42,896 bases of DNA. Source: Halorubrum alkaliphilum. Its GTDB lineage: Archaea > Halobacteriota > Halobacteria > Halobacteriales > Haloferacaceae. The notes under the pieces were generated by a model that did no database searches, was not told the origin of the DNA, and was given only the letters and a program-made list of their open reading frames with translations. How positions within the stretch are numbered: position 1 is the first letter of the stretch; each line of letters begins with the position of its first letter. Location of the stretch: the NCBI RefSeq assembly GCF_017873815.1, contig NZ_JAGGKQ010000025.1:1-42896 (forward strand), given 5' to 3'. A program made the translations under genes and the position numbers. Shown one piece after another: positions 19,571 to 33,048 of this stretch.

Positions 19571-19732
19571 GAGTGCCGATGGCGGGCAGCGAATGATAAA
19601 ACCACCGTACTGCGGCGAGATGAGCTACCGTTCACCGACCAATAACCGGTCGGTGCGAGCGCGACGATCGGGGCGATCACCCCCCGATCCACCGGGGTTT
19701 AAGTAAGGGATCGGGCCCGAGATACACGTGTG

Positions 19733-20689
19733 ATGAGTCAGGCACGTTCGACCCGCGTCAGTTCGCACCGCTCCGGAAACGCTCGCGCCGACGAGACAAC
19801 CGACGCCGCCGACGAGACGGAGACGATGGACGAGGCCGACCGGTGTCCGGAGTGCTCGGGGCGAACCCGGATCGAGAGCGCCGAGCGCGTCTGTACGGAC
19901 TGCGGACTGGTCGTCGACGCGGACCTGATCGACCACGGCCCCGAGTGGCGCTCGTTCGACGACGACGACACGAATCCGAAACGCACGGGCGCGCCGCTGA
20001 CGCGCTCGCGGCACGACCGCGGCCTCTCGACCGAGATCGGTCAGTCGACCCGCGTAAAGGGGCGCAAGCGTCGGCGGCTCTCCCGGATGCGCACCCAGCA
20101 CAACCGAGCGCAGATCTCCACGAAGCGCGACCGCAACAAGGTGTACGCCTACACCGAGATCCGCCGGCTCACCGGGGCCTTGGAGCTCCCGAACAACATC
20201 CGCGACACCGCCTGTACGCTGTTCGACTCCGCGCAGTCCGAGAGCCTGCTCCGTGGTCGGTCGCTCGAAGGGTTTGCGTGTGCCTGCGTGTACGTCGCCT
20301 GCCGCACGGCCGACGTCGCCCGCACCGTCGGCGAGGTCTGTGCCGAGGCGAAGGCGACAGAGGACGAACACCAAGCCGCCTTCGACGCGATGAACCGCGA
20401 GCTCGGTCTCCCGATCGGTCCGGCCTCGCCCGCGGAGTACCTCCCGCGGTTCGCCTCCGAACTCGACTGCGAGCAGGGCGTCGAGCAGCGCGCACGCGAA
20501 CTCGTCGACCGCGCCGTCGAGGAGGGGATCGCCAACGGTCGGAACCCAGTCGGCGTCGCCGCCGCTTGCCTGTACACCGCGGCGCGTCAGTGTAGCGCCG
20601 ACGTAACCCAGCAGGAGGCGGCCGATGTCGCCGACGTGACGCCCGTCACGATCCGCCGAACCTACGTCGATCTGACCGACGGCGAGTGA
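19733..20689 (+). CDS. tfb: Transcription initiation factor IIB
   Basis: Archaeal TFB, about 318 residues, bridging TATA-binding protein and RNA polymerase. An Asp/Glu-rich N-terminus precedes the zinc ribbon (CPEC...CTDC), the B-reader region (GAPLTRSRHDRGLSTEIG) and two cyclin-like repeats (about residues 120-205 and 215-310), ending in an HTH (TQQEAADVADVTPVTIRRTY). A basic stretch VKGRKRRRLSRMRTQHNRAQ links the reader to the core. The start is ATG at 19733. A GTG three bases earlier is the alternative. TTTAAGTA at 19698-19705 is the likely TATA box. Haloarchaea carry several tfb genes, so this may be one of a set with its own promoter preferences. Confidence 0.95.
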   Translation: MSQARSTRVSSHRSGNARADETTDAADETETMDEADRCPECSGRTRIESAERVCTDCGLVVDADLIDHGPEWRSFDDDDTNPKRTGAPLTRSRHDRGLSTEIGQSTRVKGRKRRRLSRMRTQHNRAQISTKRDRNKVYAYTEIRRLTGALELPNNIRDTACTLFDSAQSESLLRGRSLEGFACACVYVACRTADVARTVGEVCAEAKATEDEHQAAFDAMNRELGLPIGPASPAEYLPRFASELDCEQGVEQRARELVDRAVEEGIANGRNPVGVAAACLYTAARQCSADVTQQEAADVADVTPVTIRRTYVDLTDGE

Positions 20690-20811: not shown

Positions 20812-21588
20812 CGGGAGTGAGTCTCCCAAACCGGCAGCGGCGTGATCGTATTTAAAAGGAACGTGAGCGGCTGCGACGAGCGTTTATAAATAAACGATGC
20901 GGTGGCGTGCGCCTCCGAGCGCCCTTTTAAGGGCGCGAGTAGGGAGAGACCGAAGGTCTCTCTGACAGCCGGCGGCAACGCCGCCGGCGAGAGCACGCGC
21001 GAGGTCGCCGGCGCTCCGCGCCGGCTGCCAGAGAATCTTCGATTCTCGCTGGAGTCAGGGGCGGTCGCCGGACTACGTCTGGCTGTCCGAGGCGCGGAGC
21101 GCCTCGCTGCCGTGCGGGCGGCGTAGGCGTTCACGAGAGCAGCGTGGCGCGGAGCGCCACGGGCAGCCGGCGGCTCCGCCGCCGGCGACACCGCAATGAG
21201 GAAGCTTGCGACCGAGTGAGGCGCGTGGTTCGAGAGAGCGGAGCTCTCTCGTCATCGCCGGAAGTCTTTGACTTCCGGCTAGCAGCCAGAATCCAGCGGA
21301 TTCTGGCGACATTGCCAGAAATCTCCGATTTCTGGCTAGCAGTCAGAACGCGGAGCGTTCTGACGACATCCCGAAAATCTTCGATTTTCGGACGACAACG
21401 AGCGTACGCCGCCCGCACGGCTGGGGCTTTGGAGGTCTTCGCCGTCGATTAGTAGTCAACTGCTTATAAACGAGTGGCTAGAGCTTTTGAGTAGTTCCTC
21501 ATAACCTCGTCCAGTTATAAATCGCCGCCAGCAACACACTATTCCACTTATAAACAACTACTCCACCGCATTGCGAGACCTACTCCCG
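20812..21588 (+). repeat. Dispersed hairpin element, copy C (777 bp, most complete)
   Basis: The left end CGGGAGTGAGTCTCCCAA and, at the right, the complement of CGGGAGTAGGTCTCGCAA form inverted termini of about 18 bp. The left block has TTTAAAAGG at 20851 and TTTATAAAT at 20883, 32 nt apart, with GTGAGCGG between. The right block (21402-21588) begins GCGTACGCCGCCCGCACGG. It carries TTATAAAC-like boxes starting at 21463, 21514 and 21547, that is 51 and 33 nt apart, as in copy D. The middle is the hairpin array. It fills most of the interval between tfb and the arginine locus. No protein is predicted. Confidence 0.82.
20919..21391. repeat. Array of fourteen perfect short hairpins (copy C cassette)
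   Basis: Fourteen palindromes have unrelated stems and nearly constant geometry. Arms are 7-9 bp, and thirteen of the fourteen loops are 3 nt. In order the hairpins span 20919-20936, 20944-20962, 20968-20988, 21007-21025, 21031-21047, 21088-21106, 21143-21161, 21166-21186, 21231-21251, 21258-21278, 21286-21306, 21315-21335, 21343-21363 and 21371-21391. The last six all have 9-bp arms and a 28-nt period. Their spacers alternate between CTAGCAG and CGACATTG/CGACATC. The earlier ones come in pairs joined by TGACA, TGCCA or GGCA. Position 21054-21070 holds one arm of the long hairpin of copy B without its partner. Confidence 0.9.
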
Positions 21589-21636: not shown

Positions 21637-21642
21637 TTTATA
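21637..21642 (+). promoter_or_regulatory. TATA box of the Arg-rich ORF upstream of argG
   Basis: TTTATA within AATGTTTTTATATCGG, centred about 27 nt before the ATG at 21667. This is the spacing of leaderless haloarchaeal genes. Confidence 0.65.
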
Positions 21643-21666: not shown

Positions 21667-21795
21667 ATGACCGCGGAGGCTCGTCTCGGCGCCGCACTCT
21701 TCCGAGGCCGACGAGCCCCGCGACCGCGACGAGGCGTCCGACCGCCGCGACCGGATTCCGGCGCGGCGCGACGACCGGCCCCTTCGGGCCACTAA
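21667..21795 (+). CDS. 42-residue arginine-rich ORF (possible leader peptide) before argG
   Basis: The ORF runs ATG to TAA and its product has 11 Arg of 42 residues. Ten of the eleven Arg codons are CGA and one is CGT. The first part of its transcript can fold: GGCTCGTC (about 21684-21691) pairs with GACGAGCC, with TCGG/CCGA inside. Near the end, GGCCC/GGGCC form another short stem. It has a well-placed TATA box, and the next gene is argG, an arginine-synthesis gene. This pattern is what an arginine-sensing leader would look like. Against a simple cis-attenuator, argG has its own TATA box at 21902. It could instead be a structured small RNA with a fortuitous ORF. Confidence 0.5.
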   Translation: MTAEARLGAALFRGRRAPRPRRGVRPPRPDSGAARRPAPSGH

Positions 21796-21901
21796 CTTCA
21801 CTTCCCTCGTCGCGTTCGCGCCGTTTCGTTCCGTAGAGCTACTGCCGTGTCCTCCGCGAGCACCGTCTCTACGATTTTGTTACAATATCTAAAGCGACGA
21901 A

Positions 21902-21907
21902 TTTAAG
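21902..21907 (+). promoter_or_regulatory. TATA box of argG
   Basis: TTTAAG in GCGACGAATTTAAGTC, centred 28 nt before the argG ATG. It implies a leaderless argG-argH transcript that starts after the upstream Arg-rich ORF. Confidence 0.65.
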
Positions 21908-21932: not shown

Positions 21933-23180
21933 ATGACAAGCGTTGCACTCGCGTTCAGCGGCGGACTCGACACCACGGTCTGCGTCCCGCTGTTAAAAGA
22001 GGAGTACGGCTACGACGAGGTCATCGGCGTCAACGTCGACGTCGGGCAGCCGACCGAGGAGTTCGACGAGGCCGAGGAGACCGCCGAGGCGCTGGGACTG
22101 GACATTCACGTCGTCGACGCGAAAGCGGAGTTCGCAGAGCTGTGTTACGACGCGGTGAAAGCCAACGCGACGTATCAGGGCTACCCGCTCGGGACCGCCC
22201 TCGCGCGCCCCGTCATCGCCGAGGCGATCCTCGGCGTCGCCGAGGAGCAGGGCTGTGACGCCATCGCACACGGCTGCACGGGGAAGGGGAACGACCAGCT
22301 CCGGTTCGAGGCCGTCTGGCGCGGCTCCGATCTCGAAGTCATTGCCCCGGTCCGCGAGCTCGGCCTCACCCGCGAGTGGGAGATCGAGTACGCGGCCGAG
22401 AAGGATCTGCCCGTCGAGGCCGGCGACGGCGGCGTCTGGTCCATCGACGAGAACATCTGGTCACGCGCGGTCGAGGGCGGCAAGTTGGAGAATCCCGACT
22501 ACGAGCCGCCGGAGGACATCTACGAGTGGACTGCCGAGCCGGAGGGTGAGACCACTATCGAAGTCGAGTTCGAGGAGGGCGTTCCCGTCGCCGTCGACGG
22601 CGAGGAGATGGATCCCGTCCCGCTGATCCAGCATCTCAACGAGTACGCTGGCGGCTACGGGATCGGCCGTACCGACGTAATGGAAGACCGCATGCTCGGC
22701 CTGAAGGTGCGTGAGAACTACGAACACCCGGCCGCGACGGTCCTCCTCACCGCACACCAGGCGCTCGAAGACCTCGTCCTGACCAAGAACGAGCGCTCAT
22801 TCAAGAAGGGAATCGAGCAGGAGTGGTCCGAAAAGGCGTATCAAGGGCTCGTCTTCGCACCCGTCGTCGACGCGCTGGACGCGTTCGTCGACGAGACGCA
22901 GGACGTGGTGACCGGCACGGCGACCGTGAAGGTCTCCGGCGGCAACTGCCGCGTCGTCGCCCGCGACTCCGAGTACGCCGTCTACTCCGAGGAGATGGCC
23001 TCGTTCAACACCGAGGACGTGGCCGGCATCGCCCAGTCGGACGCCACGGGCGTCGCGAAATATCACGGCCTCCAGGAGCGTCTCGCCAACGACGTGAAGA
23101 AGGCGGTCTCGAAGCCGGAGCTCGCCACGGACGGAAGCGGTGAGGGCGCTGAGACGACGGACGACACCGACCACAGCTAG
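21933..23180 (+). CDS. argG: Argininosuccinate synthase
   Basis: Condenses citrulline and aspartate with ATP to give argininosuccinate, 415 residues. The PP-loop ATP site is at the N-terminus (ALAFSGGLDTTVCVPLL), followed by AHGCTGKGNDQLRFE, which is specific to ArgG. The LKVRENYEHPAATVLL region is also conserved. The C-terminal 20 residues are an acidic haloarchaeal tail. Its stop TAG abuts the argH ATG with no gap, so argG and argH form one transcript. Confidence 0.97.
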   Translation: MTSVALAFSGGLDTTVCVPLLKEEYGYDEVIGVNVDVGQPTEEFDEAEETAEALGLDIHVVDAKAEFAELCYDAVKANATYQGYPLGTALARPVIAEAILGVAEEQGCDAIAHGCTGKGNDQLRFEAVWRGSDLEVIAPVRELGLTREWEIEYAAEKDLPVEAGDGGVWSIDENIWSRAVEGGKLENPDYEPPEDIYEWTAEPEGETTIEVEFEEGVPVAVDGEEMDPVPLIQHLNEYAGGYGIGRTDVMEDRMLGLKVRENYEHPAATVLLTAHQALEDLVLTKNERSFKKGIEQEWSEKAYQGLVFAPVVDALDAFVDETQDVVTGTATVKVSGGNCRVVARDSEYAVYSEEMASFNTEDVAGIAQSDATGVAKYHGLQERLANDVKKAVSKPELATDGSGEGAETTDDTDHS

Positions 23181-24653
23181 ATGACCGACGACGATCCCGA
23201 CACGGCCGTCCGCCGCGACCGGTTCAGCGGCGGCCCCGCCCGCGAGTTCATGTCGAGTCTCGACGCCGACGAACGCATCTTCGCGGCCGACCTCGCGGTC
23301 GACCGCGCGCACGTGGTGATGCTCGCGGAGCAGGGGATCGTCGACGACGCGGTCGCAAGTGAGATCCTCGCTGCCCTCGACGACATCGAGACGGCCGGCC
23401 ACGGCGCGCTTCCCGACGGCGAGGACGTTCACGAGGCGATCGAGACGGCGGTCATCGACCGCGTCGGCCCCGACGGCGGGAAGATGCACACCGCCCGCTC
23501 GCGCAACGACGAGGTGGCGACCTGTATCCGGCATCGGCTGCGCGAGGACCTGCTCGCCGCCGCGGAGGCGACGATCACGCTCCGTGAGGCGCTCCTCGAG
23601 GTCGCGAGCGAGCACGCGGAGACGGTGATGCCCGGCTACACCCATCTCCAGCCCGCCCAGCCGACGACGGTCGCTCACTTCCTGCTGTCGTACGAGGGGG
23701 CGATCGGCCGCGACACGGAGCGCCTGCTCGGCGCGTACGAGCGGACGAATCGGTCGCCGCTCGGCGCGGCGGCGTTCGCGGGGACGCCGTTCGAGGTCGA
23801 TCGAGACCGCACCGCCGAGCTGCTCGGCTTCGATGGGACCGTCCGGAACTCGATGGACGCCTCGGCGGGACGCGACTTCCTCGCCGAGACGACGGCGGCG
23901 CTCGCCACGCACGCGACGACGCTCTCGGGGATCGCCGAGGACCTGATCGTCTACGCGAACAAGGGGTTCGTGGAGCTGTCGGACGACTACTCGTCGACCT
24001 CGTCGATCATGCCGCAAAAAAAGAATCCGGACCCGATCGAGCTCGTCCGTGCTACGGCCGGCACCGCGACCGGAGAGCTGACCGGGCTGTTGACGACGCT
24101 GAAAGGATTACCACGCGCGTACAACCTCGACTTACAGGAGGCAACGCCACACGCGTGGACCGCGGTCGATTCCGTGAGCGACGCGACAGAAGTCGTCGCG
24201 GGCGCGGTCGCAACCGCAGACTGGAACGAGGGGGTGCTCGCGGACGCCGCGGGCGACGGCTTCTCGACGGCGACGGGGGTCGCCGACCTGCTCGCGATGA
24301 GCGGGCTACCGTTCCGGACGGCTCACGAGATCGTCGCGGTGGCTGCCGAGACCGTCTCCGACGATGATACTCCGGAGGCGGCCGCCGCAAAAGTTGACGA
24401 GGCCACTCGAAACGTGACGGACGAGCCCCTCTCGACGTACGTGAGCCGTGAGGACGTCGAGGAAGCGCTCGCCCCTGCCGCCAGCGTCGCGAGCCGCGAC
24501 TCCGCCGGGGGACCCGCTCCCGAGGCCGTCGCCGACGAGCTCGCGACCGCCGAGGTCGAGATCGAGGCCGACGACGCGGCGCTGGCCGACGAGCGGGAGT
24601 CGCTCGCGGCGGCGGCGGACCTACTGGATGCCGAGGTGAGTTCGTATGCGTGA
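23181..24653 (+). CDS. argH: Argininosuccinate lyase
   Basis: Releases fumarate from argininosuccinate to give arginine, 490 residues. It belongs to the fumarase/aspartase superfamily. The conserved HTARSRNDEVAT motif lies near residue 100, MPGYTHLQPAQPTTVAHF near residue 150, and the signature SSIMPQKKNPDPIEL (about residues 274-288) contains the flexible catalytic Ser. It follows argG directly. About 250 nt without a gene separate it from lysW. Confidence 0.97.
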   Translation: MTDDDPDTAVRRDRFSGGPAREFMSSLDADERIFAADLAVDRAHVVMLAEQGIVDDAVASEILAALDDIETAGHGALPDGEDVHEAIETAVIDRVGPDGGKMHTARSRNDEVATCIRHRLREDLLAAAEATITLREALLEVASEHAETVMPGYTHLQPAQPTTVAHFLLSYEGAIGRDTERLLGAYERTNRSPLGAAAFAGTPFEVDRDRTAELLGFDGTVRNSMDASAGRDFLAETTAALATHATTLSGIAEDLIVYANKGFVELSDDYSSTSSIMPQKKNPDPIELVRATAGTATGELTGLLTTLKGLPRAYNLDLQEATPHAWTAVDSVSDATEVVAGAVATADWNEGVLADAAGDGFSTATGVADLLAMSGLPFRTAHEIVAVAAETVSDDDTPEAAAAKVDEATRNVTDEPLSTYVSREDVEEALAPAASVASRDSAGGPAPEAVADELATAEVEIEADDAALADERESLAAAADLLDAEVSSYA

Positions 24654-24800: not shown

Positions 24801-24899
24801 TAAAACCGCTCTCCGTCCGTTAGATGGTAGTACAGTTCTTGTAAAGCAGATTATAAGTTCGAAGGGTTTATGCGGGTTCACGGTCGAGTAGGAGACACG

Positions 24900-25088
24900 A
24901 TGACGACCGACACCGATCCGGTGCTGGCAGAGGACCCGATCACGGGCGAGGAGATCGAGCTTCCGGCCGACGTCGAGGTCGGCGAGATAATCGACAGTCC
25001 GGTCACGGGGACCGAGCTGGAGGTCATCTCGCTGGATCCCGTCGTGTTGGAGGAGGCACCCGAACTCGAGGAGGACTGGGGCGAGTAG
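24900..25088 (+). CDS. lysW: LysW/ArgW amino-group carrier protein
   Basis: A 62-residue acidic carrier whose C-terminal EDWGE ends in the Glu that is loaded by ArgX. The amino group of glutamate (arginine route) or aminoadipate (lysine route) is attached to this Glu and shuttled through the pathway. The central part keeps the family layout (GEEIELPADVEVGEIIDSPVTGTELEV). The four zinc-binding Cys of typical LysW are absent: DPITG and SPVTG stand where CPxCG-like knuckles usually lie. GGAG six nucleotides before the ATG is a good ribosome binding site, so this ATG is preferred over one 30 nt upstream. Confidence 0.93.
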   Translation: MTTDTDPVLAEDPITGEEIELPADVEVGEIIDSPVTGTELEVISLDPVVLEEAPELEEDWGE

Positions 25089-25129
25089 ATGGTGACAACC
25101 GCCACGACCGCGACACGCGAGTGGTCGAC

Positions 25130-26017
25130 ATGCGCATAGGCGTCCTCTACTCGCGGATCCGCCGCGACGAGAAGCTGCTGTTGTCTGAGCTGCGCGACCG
25201 CGGCCACGACGTCGAGAAGATAGACGTCCGCCGTGAGCGGTTCGGGCTAGAGTCGACCACCGCGAACGTCGGCGATCTCGATTTAGTCGTCGACCGCTGT
25301 CTCTCGACGAGCCGGTCGCTGTACGCGACGCAGTTCCTCGACAGCTACGGCGTTCCCGTCGTGAACGGACCGGAGACGGGCGATGTCTGTGCTGACAAGG
25401 CGAAGAACTCGCTCGCGCTTGCCGAGGCCGACATCCCGACTCCGGCGACGGAAGTGACGTTCACGAAGGAGGCCGCGATGGAGTCGATCGAGGAGTTCGG
25501 CTATCCCTGCGTTCTCAAGCCCGTCGTTGGCTCGTGGGGCCGGCTGATGGCGAAGATAGACACCCGGAGCGCCGCGGAGGCGATCTTAGAGCACAAGGAG
25601 ACGCTCGGTCACTACGAGCACAAGGTGTTCTACGTTCAGGAGTTCGTCGACAAGCCCGGCCGCGACGTTCGCGTACTCGCGGTCGATGGCGAGCCGATCG
25701 CCGCGATGACGCGCTCGTCGGACCACTGGCTCACGAACGCCGCGAAGGGCGGCGAGACGAAGTCGTTCGATCTTGACGATCGCGCGCTCGAACTCGTCGA
25801 TCGCGCCTCGGAGGCGGTCGGCGGCGGGATGCTCGGCGTCGATCTGATGGAAGTCGGCGGAACCGACTCCGGCGAGTACACCGTCCACGAGGTGAACCAC
25901 ACGGTCGAGTTCAAGGCACTCGACGAGGCCAGCGAGGTTGACGTTCCGGCGAAGGTCGTCGACTGGCTGGAGTCAAAAGCCGAGCAGGCGAGCGACGCCG
26001 CGGAGGCACAGGTATGA
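25130..26017 (+). CDS. argX: Glutamate-LysW ligase (ArgX/LysX, ATP-grasp)
   Basis: An ATP-grasp ligase of 295 residues that attaches the amino group of glutamate to the C-terminal Glu of LysW. The RimK-like fold is shown by MRIGVLYSRIRRDEKLL at the N-terminus, YPCVLKPVVGSWGRLMAKI (ATP-grasp core), FYVQEFVDKPGRDVRVLAVDGE and the metal-binding end VHEVNHTVEFK. The ATG at 25130 is used rather than a GTG nine bases earlier because family members begin with MRIGVLYS. The name argX rather than lysX is inferred from its company with argC, argB, argD, argE and argF. Confidence 0.92.
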   Translation: MRIGVLYSRIRRDEKLLLSELRDRGHDVEKIDVRRERFGLESTTANVGDLDLVVDRCLSTSRSLYATQFLDSYGVPVVNGPETGDVCADKAKNSLALAEADIPTPATEVTFTKEAAMESIEEFGYPCVLKPVVGSWGRLMAKIDTRSAAEAILEHKETLGHYEHKVFYVQEFVDKPGRDVRVLAVDGEPIAAMTRSSDHWLTNAAKGGETKSFDLDDRALELVDRASEAVGGGMLGVDLMEVGGTDSGEYTVHEVNHTVEFKALDEASEVDVPAKVVDWLESKAEQASDAAEAQV

Positions 26018-27093
26018 GCGCTGACGACGCGGCCGACGCGGCGACCTCCGACGCCAGCTACACCGCGAGCGTCGTCGGCGGAACCGGCTTCACGGGCGGC
26101 GAGCTGTTGCGGATCCTCGCCGGCCACCCGAACTTCGAGGTCGTACAGGCCACGTCGCGGTCGGCGGACAACATGACTGTCGGTCGCTCGCATCCAAACC
26201 TGCGCGGGCTCGACCTGCGCTTTTCGGATCCCGACGACTTGGCGTCCGTCGACGTGCTCTTCTCGGCGACGCCTCACGGCGTCTCGATGGAGCAGGTCGA
26301 CGAGTACTTCGAGGCGGCCGACACCGTCGTCGACCTCTCGGCGGACTTCCGGCTGCCCGAGGCGGCGTTGTACGACGAGTGGTACGACGGCCATGCGTCG
26401 CCGGAGTACTTGGAGCGTGCGGAGTACGCGCTTCCCGAGCTCAACCGCGAGAACCTCCCCGGTGCCGACCTGATCGCCGGTGGTGGCTGTAACGCGACCG
26501 CGACGATCCTCGGGCTGAAACCGCTCGTGGACGAGGGTGTCCTCGACTCCGAGACCGGCGAGGTCGTCGTCGACGTGAAGGTCGGCTCCTCGGAGGGCGG
26601 TGCCGGCGGCGGCGCGGCCTCCTCGCATCCGGAGCGCTCGGGCGTCGTCCGCCCGTACGCGCCGACCGGTCACCGCCACGAGGCGGAGATCGAGGCGTAT
26701 CTCGGGCTCTCCGTTTCCTTCACCGTCCACGCGGTCGACATGGTTCGCGGCGCGAGCGCGACCTGTCACGTCTTCCCGGATGACCCCGTCTCGAAGGCCG
26801 ACCTGTGGACGGCGTACCGCGGCGCGTACGCCGACGAGCCGTTCATGCGGATCGTCTCGGGCGGCGGCGGCGTCTACCGCTATCCGGAGCCGAAGTCGGT
26901 TGCGGGGACGAACCACGGTGAGGTCGGCTTCGAACTGGATCCCGGGAACCGGCGTGTCGTCGTCTTCTCGGCGATAGACAACATGACCAAGGGGTCGGCG
27001 GGACAGGCGGTCCACGGGGCGAACGTCGCGCTCGGACTGCCCGAGACCGCGGGGCTCGAATTCGAGGGGCTCCACCCCGTGGGGTCGCCATGA
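26014..27093 (+). CDS. argC: LysW-glutamyl-phosphate reductase (ArgC/LysY)
   Basis: A 359-residue NADPH-dependent dehydrogenase that reduces the LysW-bound acyl phosphate to the semialdehyde. The N-terminal Rossmann loop is VVGGTGFTGGELLRILAGHP, and the catalytic Cys lies in GGGCNATATILGLKPL. The His/Arg-rich segment VRPYAPTGHRHEAEIEAYL is part of the active site. Its ATG overlaps the argX stop by four bases and its own stop overlaps the argB start, which shows tight translational coupling. Confidence 0.95.
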   Translation: MSADDAADAATSDASYTASVVGGTGFTGGELLRILAGHPNFEVVQATSRSADNMTVGRSHPNLRGLDLRFSDPDDLASVDVLFSATPHGVSMEQVDEYFEAADTVVDLSADFRLPEAALYDEWYDGHASPEYLERAEYALPELNRENLPGADLIAGGGCNATATILGLKPLVDEGVLDSETGEVVVDVKVGSSEGGAGGGAASSHPERSGVVRPYAPTGHRHEAEIEAYLGLSVSFTVHAVDMVRGASATCHVFPDDPVSKADLWTAYRGAYADEPFMRIVSGGGGVYRYPEPKSVAGTNHGEVGFELDPGNRRVVVFSAIDNMTKGSAGQAVHGANVALGLPETAGLEFEGLHPVGSP

Positions 27094-28046
27094 CGGGCGA
27101 TATCGAGGGGACGGCGTCCGACATCGTCGCCGACGGCGGGCACGACGCCGGCGGCGCACCCGCCGACGAGCCCCCCGTCGTCGTCAAGATCGGCGGCGCG
27201 AAGGCGGTCGACCCGGCCGGCGCGGTCGGCGACGTGGCCCACCTCGTCGCGAACGGGCGTCGGGTCGTCGTCGTCCACGGCGGCTCGACGGTCGTCGACG
27301 AGGTCATCGAGCGGCTCGGGATGGAGCCGGAGTACGTCGAGTCCGCCTCCGGCGTCACCGGCCGATTCACCGACGCGGAGACGATGGAGGCGTTCACGAT
27401 GGCGATGGCCGGGAAGCTCAACACGGAGCTGACGGCGCTGTTCCGCGAGGCCGGCGTCGACGCGGTCGGTCTCTCGGGCGTCGACGGCGGGATCCTCTCC
27501 GGACCCCGCAAGTCGGCGGTCCGCGTTATCGAGGACGGTAAAAAGAAGATCCGTCGCGGCGAGCACTCCGGTCGGATCGAGTCGGTGAACGCCGACCTCC
27601 TCTCCGGGCTGCTCGGCGACGGCTACACCCCCGTCGTCTCGCCGCCGATGGAGGGGAAAGAGAGCGACGGCGGCGTCACGCCAGTCAACACGGATGCGGA
27701 TCGGGCGGCCGCCGCGGTCGCCGGTGCGCTCGACGCGGATCTCGTCCTGTTGACCGACGTTGCCGGCGTGTACGCGGACCCCGACGACTCCGACACGCTG
27801 ATCGAGTCGGCGGCGACGCCCGACGAACTGGCGGCGGTCGAAGACGCCGCTGAGGGGTTCATGGGAAAGAAGGTGATGGCCGCGACGGAGGCGCTGACGG
27901 GCGGCTCCGGTCGCGTCGTGATAGGCGACGCCAACGTCCGTGACCCGATCGTCGCGGCGCTCGGCGGTGCGGGAACGACCATCGAGCGGTCGGCGATCGA
28001 GGAAGTTGAGGAGGCCGCCGAAACGGACGGGGGTGAAACCGCATGA
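27090..28046 (+). CDS. argB: LysW-glutamate kinase (ArgB/LysZ)
   Basis: An amino-acid-kinase-family enzyme of 318 residues that phosphorylates LysW-bound glutamate. After an acidic N-terminal extension of about 27 residues, the core starts at VVVKIGGAKAVDPAG. VVVHGGSTVVDEVIERLGMEPEYV forms the substrate site, and LLTDVAGVYADPDDSDTLI plus GFMGKKVMAATEALTGG form the ATP-binding side. Four-base overlaps on both sides place it in the operon. The same enzyme may act on aminoadipate for lysine in some archaea, but the neighbours point to arginine. Confidence 0.95.
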   Translation: MTGDIEGTASDIVADGGHDAGGAPADEPPVVVKIGGAKAVDPAGAVGDVAHLVANGRRVVVVHGGSTVVDEVIERLGMEPEYVESASGVTGRFTDAETMEAFTMAMAGKLNTELTALFREAGVDAVGLSGVDGGILSGPRKSAVRVIEDGKKKIRRGEHSGRIESVNADLLSGLLGDGYTPVVSPPMEGKESDGGVTPVNTDADRAAAAVAGALDADLVLLTDVAGVYADPDDSDTLIESAATPDELAAVEDAAEGFMGKKVMAATEALTGGSGRVVIGDANVRDPIVAALGGAGTTIERSAIEEVEEAAETDGGETA

Positions 28047-29170
28047 GCGGCTTCGTCTTCTCGGAGAAGCCGATCGAGATCGCCCGCGGCGAGGACGTGT
28101 GGCTGTACGACACAAACGGAAACGAGTATCTCGACTTCGGCGCGAGCTACGCCTGTACTCCGGTCGGCCACTGTCACCCCGACGTGGTCGACGCCGCGAC
28201 GAGCCAGCTGGAGGATCTGATGTACGTTCAGGCGTCGTACCCGCACGCGGCGCGAACCGCGCTGTACGAGCAGCTCGCCGACACCGCTCCCGTCGATGTC
28301 GACAACGTCTGGCTCTGTAACTCGGGAACCGAGGCCAACGAGGCAGCCCTGAAGTTCGCCCGGCACGCGACGGGTCGCGAGAAGATCATCGCGACAAAAC
28401 AGGGGTTTCACGGCCGGACGATGGGTGCGCTCGCGACCACGTGGAAAGGGAAGTACAAGCAGGGGTTCGAGCCGCTCGCGGGCGGCGTCGAGTTCGTCGA
28501 CTACGGCGATATCGACGCCATGCGCGAGGCGGTGGACGATGAGACCGCCGCGGTGATCATCGAGCCGCTACAGGGCGAGGGCGGGATCAACCCCGTCTCG
28601 ACGGAGTACTTACAGGCGGTTCGCGTCGCGACGGCGACGTCCGGCGCGGCGATGATCCTCGACGAGATACAGACCGGACTCGGCCGTACCGGCTCGATGT
28701 GGGCGGCGGACGGCCACGACGTGGTTCCTGACGTTCTCACGACCGCGAAAGGGCTCGGCAGCGGGCTCCCGATCGGCGCGACGCTGTGTCGCGACTGGAT
28801 CGCCGAGAACTGCGGGAACCACGGCTCGACGTTCTCCGGTGGCCCCGTCGTCTCGGCGGCCGCGGGGGCGACGCTCGATGTCCTTGAGCGCGAGGAGCTT
28901 CCGGCACACGCCGCCGAGATGGGTACGTATCTCCGCGAGGAGATCGACGAGCGTCTGGGCGACGAGATCCGGGAGGTTCGCGGCGACGGGCTGATGATCG
29001 GTATCGAGGTGAAGCGCGGCTCGAACCGGCTGTTGCGCGAGTTGGCGATCGAACACGGGATCCTCGCGTTGCCCGCGGGCCGGACCGTGTTGCGCCTGCT
29101 TCCGCCGTTGACGATCGATCGCGACCACGCCGACGCCGTCGTGGACGCGATCGAGGAGGTGATCGCGTGA
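28043..29170 (+). CDS. argD: LysW-ornithine/LysW-lysine aminotransferase (ArgD/LysJ)
   Basis: A class-III PLP aminotransferase of 375 residues converting the LysW-bound semialdehyde to LysW-ornithine, with glutamate as amino donor. The PLP Lys is in LTTAKGLGSGLPIGA. Other family features are WLCNSGTEANEAALKFARHATGR, FHGRTMGAL, and the EPLQGEGGINPV and LDEIQTGLGRTG segments that hold the cofactor. It overlaps argB by four bases, and its stop overlaps the argE start. Confidence 0.95.
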   Translation: MSGFVFSEKPIEIARGEDVWLYDTNGNEYLDFGASYACTPVGHCHPDVVDAATSQLEDLMYVQASYPHAARTALYEQLADTAPVDVDNVWLCNSGTEANEAALKFARHATGREKIIATKQGFHGRTMGALATTWKGKYKQGFEPLAGGVEFVDYGDIDAMREAVDDETAAVIIEPLQGEGGINPVSTEYLQAVRVATATSGAAMILDEIQTGLGRTGSMWAADGHDVVPDVLTTAKGLGSGLPIGATLCRDWIAENCGNHGSTFSGGPVVSAAAGATLDVLEREELPAHAAEMGTYLREEIDERLGDEIREVRGDGLMIGIEVKRGSNRLLRELAIEHGILALPAGRTVLRLLPPLTIDRDHADAVVDAIEEVIA

Positions 29171-30324
29171 TGGCGACCGGGGAAGAGCGCGAGTCGCCGG
29201 TCGAGTCCGCGAACGACTCCAACGCCGCCGGGACGGACGTCGTCGCCGGCGGGGGATACCCCGATGCCTGCGACACGCCGGCCCGGAGGTTGCTGTATGA
29301 CATGGTGTCGATCCCCTCGCCGTCGGGCGAGGAGGAGCAGGCCGCGAAGCGGCTCGTCGACTTCTTCGAGGCCAACGGCCGCGAGGCGTGGATCGACGAG
29401 GTCGGCAACGTTCGTGCGCCCGCGAGCGACGCGGTCCTGTTGACTTCGCATGTCGACACCGTTCCGGGCGACATCCCCGTTGAAGTGAAGCCGGCGGCCG
29501 ATGACGATGCCGTCGGCGAGCCGGGCGAGCCCGTCCTCTGGGGGCGCGGCTCGGTGGACGCCACCGGCCCCCTCGTCGCAATGGCGGTCGCGGCGGTCGA
29601 GACCGGCGTCTCGTTCGTCGGCGTCGCCGGCGAAGAGACGAACTCGCAGGGCGCTCGGTTCCTCATCGAGGACCGCGACGCGCCGGAGCTGTTGGTGAAC
29701 GGCGAGCCGTCCGGCTGGGACGGGATCACGCTCGGCTACCGCGGGTTCCTCGCGGGCACGTACGTGAACACGAGCGAGTCCGGTCACAGCTCGCGGCCGG
29801 AGCCGAACGCCATCCAGCACGCGATCGACTGGTGGCACGGCGTCGAGGAGACGTTCGATCCCGCCGACCCCGATACGCCGGTGTTCGAGCAGGTGACGAC
29901 GAAGCCGGTCTCCATCGACGGCGGACTCACGGATGACGGACTGGCGGTCGAGACGACGATGGAGGTACAGCTGCGCGTCCCGCCGACCCGCACCGTCGAC
30001 GAGGTTCACGAACTGGCGGAGGCACAGATGGCGACCGGCTCGGTTCACTGGAAGGAGCCGATCCCGCCGGTGATGGAGAGCCCGCGTACCGAACTCGCGC
30101 GGGCGTTCCGCGTCGCCATCCGTGAGGCGGGCGGCGACGTCCGGCTCATCCGCAAAACGGGCACCAGCGACATGAACCTCTTCGCGGCCGCGTGGGACTG
30201 CCCGATGGTCACCTACGGCCCGGGGGACTCGGATCTGGACCACGCTCCCGACGAGCGGCTGCCGCTCTCGCACCTGGATCGCGCAACGACCGTGTTGAGC
30301 GACGTCTGCCGGGACCGACGGTAG
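29170..30324 (+). CDS. argE: LysW-ornithine hydrolase (ArgE/LysK, M20 family)
   Basis: A zinc-dependent M20-family deacylase of 384 residues that frees ornithine from LysW. After an acidic leader, the catalytic pattern appears as LLTSHVDTVPGDIPV, RGSVDATGPL, VAGEETNSQGARFLIE and a late TSDMN. A GTG start at 29167 overlaps the previous stop. The ATG at 29170 begins on the last base of that stop (TGATG), and I prefer it. The metal ligands (His, Asp, Glu) are present. Confidence 0.93.
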   Translation: MATGEERESPVESANDSNAAGTDVVAGGGYPDACDTPARRLLYDMVSIPSPSGEEEQAAKRLVDFFEANGREAWIDEVGNVRAPASDAVLLTSHVDTVPGDIPVEVKPAADDDAVGEPGEPVLWGRGSVDATGPLVAMAVAAVETGVSFVGVAGEETNSQGARFLIEDRDAPELLVNGEPSGWDGITLGYRGFLAGTYVNTSESGHSSRPEPNAIQHAIDWWHGVEETFDPADPDTPVFEQVTTKPVSIDGGLTDDGLAVETTMEVQLRVPPTRTVDEVHELAEAQMATGSVHWKEPIPPVMESPRTELARAFRVAIREAGGDVRLIRKTGTSDMNLFAAAWDCPMVTYGPGDSDLDHAPDERLPLSHLDRATTVLSDVCRDRR

Positions 30325-30464: not shown

Positions 30465-31361
30465 ATGCCACTCGCTACCGACGACTTCCTTGACATCGAT
30501 GACGTGACGCCCGCCGAGTTGGACGCACTGCTCGACCGCGCCGCCGCGATGAAGGCCGGCGACACTGATCCTCGGCTCCCGGACACGACGCTGGGAATGA
30601 TATTCGAGAAACCCTCGACGCGGACCAGGATCTCCTTCGAGACGGGGATGACCCGGCTCGGCGGCCACGCGATGTTCCTCGGGCCCGACGACCTCCAGCT
30701 GGGTCACGGCGAGCCGCTCCGGGACACCGCACGCGTGGTCGGACGATACGTCGACGGGGTGATGGCCCGGCTGTTCGACCACGCCGACGTCGAGGAGCTC
30801 GCCGCATACGCCGACTGTCCGGTGATCAACGGGCTCACCGACGAGGCACACCCCTGTCAGACGCTTGCGGATCTCCTAACGATCCGCGAGTCGGTCGGGG
30901 AGGACGCCCACGTCGCGTGGGTCGGCGACGGAAACAACGTCGGGCAGTCGTTCGTCGTCGGCGCGGCGATGGCGGGGATCGACGTGTCGGTCGCGACACC
31001 CGCCGACTACGGCATGAACACGGCCGTCTTCGACCGGGCCGCGGAGTTCGGCGCGGACGTCGAGCCGACGACCGACCCCGAGACGGCCATCGCGGACGCC
31101 GATGTCGTCTACACTGACGTCTGGATCTCGATGGGTCAGGAGGGCGAACGCGAGCAGAAGCTCACCGCCTTCGACGGGTTCCAAGTGAACCGGGAACTGC
31201 TCGCGGAAACCGACGCGAAGGTGATGCACTGTCTGCCCGCCCACCGCGGCGAGGAGATCACTGACGACGTGCTCGAATCGGACCGCGCGCTGGTATGGGA
31301 CCAGGCCGAAAACCGGATGCACGCCCAGAACGCGCTGCTGATCGAACTGTTGGGCGAATAA
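30465..31361 (+). CDS. argF: Ornithine carbamoyltransferase
   Basis: Forms citrulline from ornithine and carbamoyl phosphate, 298 residues. The carbamoyl-phosphate motif FEKPSTRTRISFETG lies near residues 46-60. MHCLPAHRGEEITDDVLES (near 246) contains the ornithine-binding His-Cys-Leu-Pro, and DQAENRMHAQNALL is the C-terminal signature. It follows argE after 140 nt that include a short tandem repeat, and completes the pathway to argG and argH upstream. It is probably cotranscribed with the lysW operon. Confidence 0.97.
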   Translation: MPLATDDFLDIDDVTPAELDALLDRAAAMKAGDTDPRLPDTTLGMIFEKPSTRTRISFETGMTRLGGHAMFLGPDDLQLGHGEPLRDTARVVGRYVDGVMARLFDHADVEELAAYADCPVINGLTDEAHPCQTLADLLTIRESVGEDAHVAWVGDGNNVGQSFVVGAAMAGIDVSVATPADYGMNTAVFDRAAEFGADVEPTTDPETAIADADVVYTDVWISMGQEGEREQKLTAFDGFQVNRELLAETDAKVMHCLPAHRGEEITDDVLESDRALVWDQAENRMHAQNALLIELLGE

Positions 31362-32640: not shown

Positions 32641-33048
32641 CGGGAGTAAATCTCCCAAATCGGTGGCGACGAGATCGTATTTAAAAAGACTGTGAGCGGC
32701 CACGAGGCTCCTTTATAAATAGACGATGCGGTGGCGTGCCCCGGTTCGCGCCCTCAAAAGGGCGCGAACCGCGAGGGACCGAAGGTCCCTCTGGCAGCCG
32801 GCGCGTAGCGCCGGCGACACCGCAACGAGGGAGCTTGCGACCGAGTGAGGAGCACAGCGAGCGTACGCCGCCCGCACGGCTGGGGCTTTGGAAGTGTTCA
32901 CCGACGATCCGTACTCGACCACTTATAAACGAACAGCTGGAGGGGTAGAAGCGTTCACCACAGCATCATCTACTTATAAACAGCTGCCAGCAACACCAAT
33001 AGCTCGTTTATAAACAACTACTCCACCGTATTGCGAGACCTACTCCCG
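32641..33048 (+). repeat. Dispersed hairpin element, copy D (408 bp)
   Basis: The left end starts CGGGAGTAAATCTCCC and the right end, read in reverse, is CGGGAGTAGGTCTCGC. The left block has TTTAAAAAG at 32680 and TTTATAAAT at 32712, again 32 nt apart. Three hairpins follow with arms 32743-32754/32759-32770 (GGTTCGCGCCCT), 32773-32780/32784-32791 (GAGGGACC) and 32797-32804/32808-32815 (GCCGGCGC). These are the same three modules as in copy A. The right block (32861-33048) carries TTATAAAC-type boxes at 32922, 32973 and 33006, with spacings 51 and 33. It ends eight bases before the hemL stop codon. Confidence 0.82.

Follow-up and report, generated by a model that had tools for sequence, protein, structure and literature searches.

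The arginine operon and its leader

The window, by which we mean the whole 42,896-nucleotide stretch of Halorubrum alkaliphilum DNA analysed here (contig NZ_JAGGKQ010000025.1), carries on its forward strand the genes for argininosuccinate synthase (argG, 21933..23180; NF010392, 652 bits), argininosuccinate lyase (argH, 23181..24653; TIGR00838), a LysW/ArgW-like carrier with the C-terminus EDWGE (24870..25088; assigned by sequence and position, its annotated start being uncertain), an argX/lysX ligase (25121..26017; TIGR02144), argC (26014..27093; TIGR01850), an argB-type kinase (27090..28046; NF010661), an argD-type aminotransferase (28043..29170; TIGR00707), an argE/lysK-type hydrolase (29167..30324; NF003367) and ornithine carbamoyltransferase (argF, 30465..31361; TIGR00658). 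Judging by these assignments, the genes make up the complete glutamate-to-arginine pathway. An earlier note on this DNA had placed an arginine-rich open reading frame directly before the arginine operon, and indeed argGH-lysW-argXCBDEF lies downstream of it.

This leader ORF (uORF; 21667..21795, forward strand) encodes a 42-aa peptide, MTAEARLGAALFRGRRAPRPRRGVRPPRPDSGAARRPAPSGH, followed by a stop codon. Our recount agrees with the composition given earlier: 11 of the 42 residues are arginine, ten of them encoded by CGA (codons 13, 15, 16, 19, 21, 22, 25, 28, 35 and 36; 21703..21774, with orthologous CGA clusters elsewhere) and one by CGT. The TATA box said to be well placed is TTTATA (21637..21642), 30 nt upstream of the uORF ATG, so that the uORF is predicted to be leaderless, and argG does possess the separate TATA box attributed to it (TTTAAG, 21902..21907), 31 nt before its own ATG. 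Since CGA makes up only 11% of the arginine codons in 16 genes of the window (43/388), the bias of the uORF is far from chance (10 CGA among 11 Arg codons; p ~3e-9); in argG and argH together, CGA accounts for 2 of 41 arginine codons. The arginine content is equally deviant, as 11 Arg among 41 uORF codons has a probability of ~1e-5 given the 5.7% of Arg codons in the same 16 genes. The uORF is real and its placement is not due to chance. A tRNA-Arg(UCG) gene is present in the genome.

Conservation within the genus

Our genus set comprised 52 genomes, all of which except G019 yielded an argG match with leader DNA; the alignment comprises these 51 upstream regions. The DNA is near-invariant from the uORF start to ~21830, the sequence following the stop codon being conserved to the same degree as the ORF itself. 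The start codon is ATG, or GTG in two genomes; insertions and deletions within the uORF measure 3 or 6 nt, i.e. multiples of three; and the stop is either a TAA following the GGCC hairpin or a TGA/TAG in its loop, without exception. Entropies at the three codon positions (0.20/0.43/0.28) lack the third-position excess typical of coding sequences, suggesting that constraints at the RNA level dominate, or act alongside coding constraints, in holding the letters of the uORF. The near-invariance of the DNA, together with an apparent loss of stop codons in some genomes, had prompted the idea of a non-coding structured RNA. As the sole explanation this was rejected, because the seemingly lost stops are TGA or TAG codons in the loop and the indels are multiples of three.

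A conserved unit upstream of argG in haloarchaea

A search of the order with the whole leader DNA gave clear matches only in the genus and a sister genus (g3), the weaker ones resembling chance hits to CGA-rich DNA. Such a search being uninformative beyond the sister genus, we anchored the comparison on argG and collected the upstream DNA of 43 further haloarchaea, and then of 28 more, beyond the genus. The combination of TATA box, ORF and stop hairpin was found by automatic search in 119 of 122 haloarchaeal argG upstream regions. Two of the misses belong to the genus (L037 and L043) and have a uORF that is visible in the alignment, with a hairpin beyond the limits of the search; the ORF of the third (L134) is Arg-rich but deviant. 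Later counts exclude L048, L129 and L135, for which the automatic pick was wrong or unclear. The order of elements is conserved: a TATA box, a leaderless ATG ~31 nt further on, an ORF (21-76 codons) whose 5' part forms a stem-loop, CGA codons clustered 4-8 codons ahead of the stop, the stop itself within or adjoining a covarying G+C-rich hairpin, and a G-poor spacer. Most genomes have 29-33 nt between the start of the TATA box and the ATG, which fits a leaderless transcript.

When the ATG was picked from the TATA box alone, it was in frame with the CGA/stop motif at 129 of the 135 loci having a start, and in 41 of 43 cases in a set of named genomes for which the motif had been fixed beforehand. 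Genomes whose TATA box is weak, or which have no start where one would be expected, are omitted from these counts (16 from the larger test and 11 from the named one). In the larger test, the score used to choose the stop also took the start into account, which was not so in the named-genome test. The in-frame starts span some 25 ORF lengths and several dozen genera, and we consider this agreement the strongest evidence that the uORF is read, its translation being inferred. The sampled genera are not independent lineages, so the counts overstate the number of evolutionary events; the maintenance of the frame over some 25 lengths is nevertheless robust to this reservation.

Codon usage points to the same end of the ORF. 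In 62 distinct leaders from outside the genus, arginine makes up 47.5% of the last nine codons and occupies codon -5 in 85% and codon -7 in 76% of cases, mostly as CGA. CGA supplies 187 of the 265 arginine codons in these nine positions versus 32 of 187 in the remainder of those ORFs, where usage is ordinary. The gap between the final Arg codon and the hairpin is usually 0-2 nt, and the stop lies within the hairpin in 59 of the 62. A C-terminus of the form R-R-x-[GA]-x recurs, the rest of the peptide varying freely between genera, so that the Arg run and the hairpin-encoded tail are the only recurring parts. The comparison of codon use across relatives, proposed earlier as a check, thus found the CGA cluster conserved in haloarchaeal argG leaders; the condition that would have refuted an arginine-sensing leader, homologous loci without the ORF or its Arg codons, was checked among relatives and was not fulfilled.

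The degenerate pattern CGACSGGSCCN(2-5)TAGGSCC occurs in 120 of 293 genomes of the order, about once per genome. The motif CGACCGGGCCNNTAGGCCC has 78 matches in 84,980 genomes, 57 of them haloarchaeal; argG follows immediately in 54 of these, and three are truncated by the end of the available DNA. The remaining 21 are scattered among bacteria, which by our estimate is about the number expected by chance. The leader is present in five further haloarchaea and was not found before argG in 23 non-haloarchaeal Halobacteriota. In genomes of family f6, a recurrent variant, CGACSGGSCCGTAGTAGGGCC, constitutes a second match to the degenerate pattern beside the TAGGCCC-type one (G083:C1:342376, G093:C1:922527 and G056:C4:55468).

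RNA structure of the leader

Stems overlapping the Arg codons, which the earlier note had foreseen, are well supported. The 5' arm of stem P1 (21672..21685, forward strand, as for all elements below) lies within the uORF and pairs with 21710..21722, an arm that covers CGA codons 15, 16 and 19; in the genus, compensatory G-C to A-U changes occur at two of its pairs (in 11 and 3 sequences). A long-range helix of 9 bp joins CGA codons 21-22 (CGCGACGAG, 21725..21733) to a segment 3' of the stop (CTCGTCGCG, 21806..21814) that is as conserved as the ORF. It is invariant in the genus except for one broken pair in one genome, and in the sister genus (L071) its arms are different yet complementary (CGCGACGACGA/TCGTCGTCGC). 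An internal hairpin, CCGCGACCGG-ATT-CCGGCGCGG (21745..21766), is not present in this sister genus. As a general feature, pairing between the CGA run and sequence further 3' was rejected: it is clear in three genera only, namely the window's, its sister and one more.

Hairpin P2 (GGCCC-CTTC-GGGCC, 21777..21790) is directly followed by the stop codon TAA (21793-21795); the stop thus comes just after the hairpin in the window, versus in its loop in most other genera. As a MAFFT alignment of the P2 windows yielded no useful columns, the arms were compared directly. Among 16 arm variants of at least 5 nt, native arms form 4.94 of 5 Watson-Crick pairs versus 3.40 for arms exchanged among the variants; by this comparison of sequences the arms of P2 covary. 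Whole leaders give a mean folding z of -1.8 relative to shuffled sequence, against 0 for the control, and the 30 nt 3' of the hairpin contain only 11.5% G and are unstructured. We found neither a U-run adjoining P2 nor a classical terminator after it, the spacer being C/T-rich and not strongly U-rich. Archaeal termination is, however, of a different kind. An Rfam covariance-model search of the leader gave no match, even at E-values up to 5.

Promoter layouts

A second TATA box (GAATTTA) precedes argG in 34 of 63 distinct leaders, the window included, and is likely to give a leaderless argG transcript. The other 29 have no TATA box before argG, so the leader RNA must be the 5' leader of argG there, and argG presumably depends on the leader promoter for its expression; in these single-promoter lineages, to which Natronomonas and Halococcus belong, argG begins ~80-138 nt 3' of the uORF, without a U-tract terminator near P2. 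The window's genus has a TATA box for argG itself, so the leader there probably adds to a basal promoter, and as this box is intact and conserved, the leader may not control most of the argG mRNA. A T-rich tract (TTTTGTT, 21875..21881) recurs in type-B sequences and could be the end of the leader RNA or an element of the second promoter. More broadly, a TTTATTTCnnAATCTAAA-like motif is found in the window (21875-21900) and in two-promoter genera at a near-constant distance before the second argG TATA box; by eye, it occurs only in lineages having that box. It may be a terminator of the leader RNA or an operator for a regulator.

A probable cognate leader upstream of ilvB

Leaderless ORFs of 23-31 codons, typically ending in ATT ATT GTA GGG GTN (or GCN) and a stop, are also found upstream of ilvB. 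Their stop sits inside a GTAGGGG/CCCCTAC hairpin that is followed by a G-poor spacer. A fixed scan detected them in 19 of 30 genomes, the identical scan on argG giving 34 of 40. The encoded peptides end in IIVGV or IVGA (L334-L363; L349 in the genome of the window), a design like that of the argG leader, and the codons concerned are rare in the genes of the arg operon (ATT, 2 of 91 Ile; GTA, 4 of 244 Val). Upstream of leuA and trpE, the fixed scan returned only scattered non-cognate ORFs, and a simpler scan without the hairpin test found no cognate leader at hisD. A match between amino acid and pathway in two operons would be hard to explain except by leader-peptide control.

Proposed mechanism and alternatives

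The earlier suggestion of an arginine-sensing leader is strengthened by the observed conservation of the reading frame, the Arg cluster with its CGA bias, the stop within a covarying hairpin, the link to argG and the Ile/Val version at ilvB. We propose, with a probability of roughly 0.7, that the leader in the window acts in cis through its leader peptide, controlling the arginine operon in response to charged tRNA-Arg(UCG). The leaderless transcript would begin at the uORF, with ribosomes translating while RNA polymerase proceeds. When arginyl-tRNA(UCG) is scarce, the ribosome would stall in the CGA run; as this run ends 0-2 nt before P2 in most genomes, a ribosome held there should mask the 5' arm of P2, as well as the CGA arm of the long-range helix in the genus of the window, and the operon would be expressed. 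With plentiful arginine, the ribosome would reach the stop in or beside P2 and depart, P2 (and the long helix) would form, and expression would be lowered via premature termination or else via lost translation or stability. The leader would control all argG mRNA in single-promoter lineages (29 of 63 distinct leaders) and add to a basal leaderless transcript in second-TATA lineages, including the window's genus. Codon-specific stalling, raised earlier as a possible mechanism, is the best-supported reading after comparison of several dozen genera; in the absence of expression data, stalling is inferred, as are transcription and translation of the leader, the OFF/ON direction and the step acted on.

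For that last step, termination dependent on the archaeal factor FttA has been put forward as a means of policing transcription-translation coupling, but FttA has a preference for RNA rich in U (PMC11616081), which, set against a C/T-rich spacer, counts against termination after P2. Translation or decay remain possible targets, because a stall at Arg codons of the Salmonella speF leader acts through Rho and mRNA decay (PMC6386406). Control of translation or mRNA decay instead of termination, a sub-case of the proposed mechanism, would suit single-promoter lineages, where argG follows on the same RNA ~80-138 nt past the uORF with no U-tract terminator near P2, and sits less well with the leaderless argG promoter of many lineages; no systematic search for a helix sequestering the argG start underlies it, and we regard it as possible but rather unlikely.

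Other explanations depart further from the tRNA-sensing leader. If free arginine, not tRNA charging, stalled the ribosome on the Arg-rich peptide in the manner of the fungal attenuator, the recurrent R-R-x-[GA]-x C-terminus and the nearness of the stop to the Arg run would be accounted for; but the peptide is otherwise unconserved, ilvB shows the same arrangement with ATT and GTA, and the preference for CGA among Arg codons is limited to the cluster, which indicates codon/tRNA sensing and makes peptide arrest improbable. About as improbable is a free-standing structured small RNA, transcribed from a promoter of its own, ending at the T-tract and either working in trans or leaving argG unaffected, whose ORF would be a by-product of CGA-rich stems. 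It would explain the near-invariance of 21667-21830 in the genus, with post-ORF DNA equally conserved, the indifference of substitutions to codon position and the separate argG TATA box, but not the frame held over some 25 ORF lengths, the in-frame stop in the hairpin, the multiple-of-3 indels, the 29 of 63 leaders without a second TATA box or the Ile/Val version at ilvB. A small arginine-rich protein acting in trans, for instance by binding RNA, is compatible with a conserved and probably translated ORF; we consider it very unlikely, as the ORF is always attached to argG, its length ranges from 21 to 76 codons, and the free variation outside the C-terminal Arg run would speak against trans action. 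Mere composition has a negligible claim: CGA/GAC repeats are common in the G+C-rich DNA of haloarchaea, and many weak matches to the ORF region fall elsewhere, but non-coding repeats are refuted by the conserved frame, codons, hairpin and linkage to argG.

Relation to known systems

Like bacterial attenuators (trpL, hisL, ilvL, Corynebacterium ilvBNC), the leader precedes a biosynthetic operon and has a short ORF enriched in the amino acid which that operon makes, overlapped by RNA stems that may be alternatives to one another. It meets the criteria of a short, conserved in-frame ORF in the 5' leader (co-transcription being implied where no second TATA box exists) and of a cluster of end-product codons (Arg at -4 to -8; Ile/Val at ilvB). 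The archaeal leaders differ in being leaderless, with the ORF starting at the RNA 5' end, in having the stop codon within the hairpin, in using rare A/T-ended cognate codons and in lacking a U-run terminator right after the hairpin. The fungal arginine attenuator peptide (arg-2/CPA1 uORF) is likewise encoded ahead of an arginine gene, and is a conserved peptide that arrests the ribosome with free arginine. In the haloarchaeal leader the codons are conserved and the peptide is not, so that a conserved arrest peptide is lacking (only the Arg run and the hairpin-encoded tail recur). T-boxes and other amino-acid riboswitches also reside in 5' leader RNAs of amino-acid genes; the haloarchaeal leader, in contrast, has no Rfam match and its conservation tracks the reading frame. 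Salmonella SpeFL/orf34 is also a short leader ORF, with consecutive Arg codons by which it senses arginine and a hairpin by the stop, but controls ornithine decarboxylase, starts from a Shine-Dalgarno sequence and acts via Rho and RNase G; rare versus frequent codon identity is immaterial there, whereas CGA is conserved in the haloarchaeal leader (PMC6386406).

We found no report of an archaeal leader-peptide attenuator in the literature searched, which did not extend to subscription papers; a review of archaeal transcription-translation coupling mentions none (PMC8116511), and argG goes unmentioned in the main text of Haloferax papers dealing with start sites or ribosome profiling. We lean somewhat towards the broader view that leader peptides sensing amino acids are in general use in haloarchaea, for Arg at argG and for Ile/Val at ilvB at the least. 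Each would be a leaderless ORF with rare cognate codons close before a stop-bearing hairpin, acting through transcription-translation coupling, and the system would be a first case of leader-peptide attenuation in archaea. If so, coupling would serve gene control in archaea, a genetic handle on coupling and factor-dependent termination in living archaea would be at hand, and the logic of bacterial attenuators would have arisen or persisted in a second domain with a distinct layout.

Neighbouring sequences

Upstream of the leader lies a gene for a TFB-type transcription factor (19730-20689), scoring under the family cut-off. Between the two, about a dozen near-perfect short palindromes stand in a row (20920-21420; e.g. 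CCGGAAGTCTTTGACTTCCGG, CCAGAAATCTCCGATTTCTGG and CCGAAAATCTTCGATTTTCGG), and a similar stretch exists in L034. Palindromes resembling these, several of them perfect (e.g. CACCAGACTACGTCTGGTG), have enlarged the 76-codon leader of L124 in frame. A 29-bp stretch (21560-21588) is repeated at 33020 and in contigs C5, C6, C7 and C10 of the same genome. Elsewhere in this genome, an array of at least 10 tRNA genes (C13:31300-35700; L319, L312), possibly a provirus or mobile element, includes a second tRNA-Arg(UCG).
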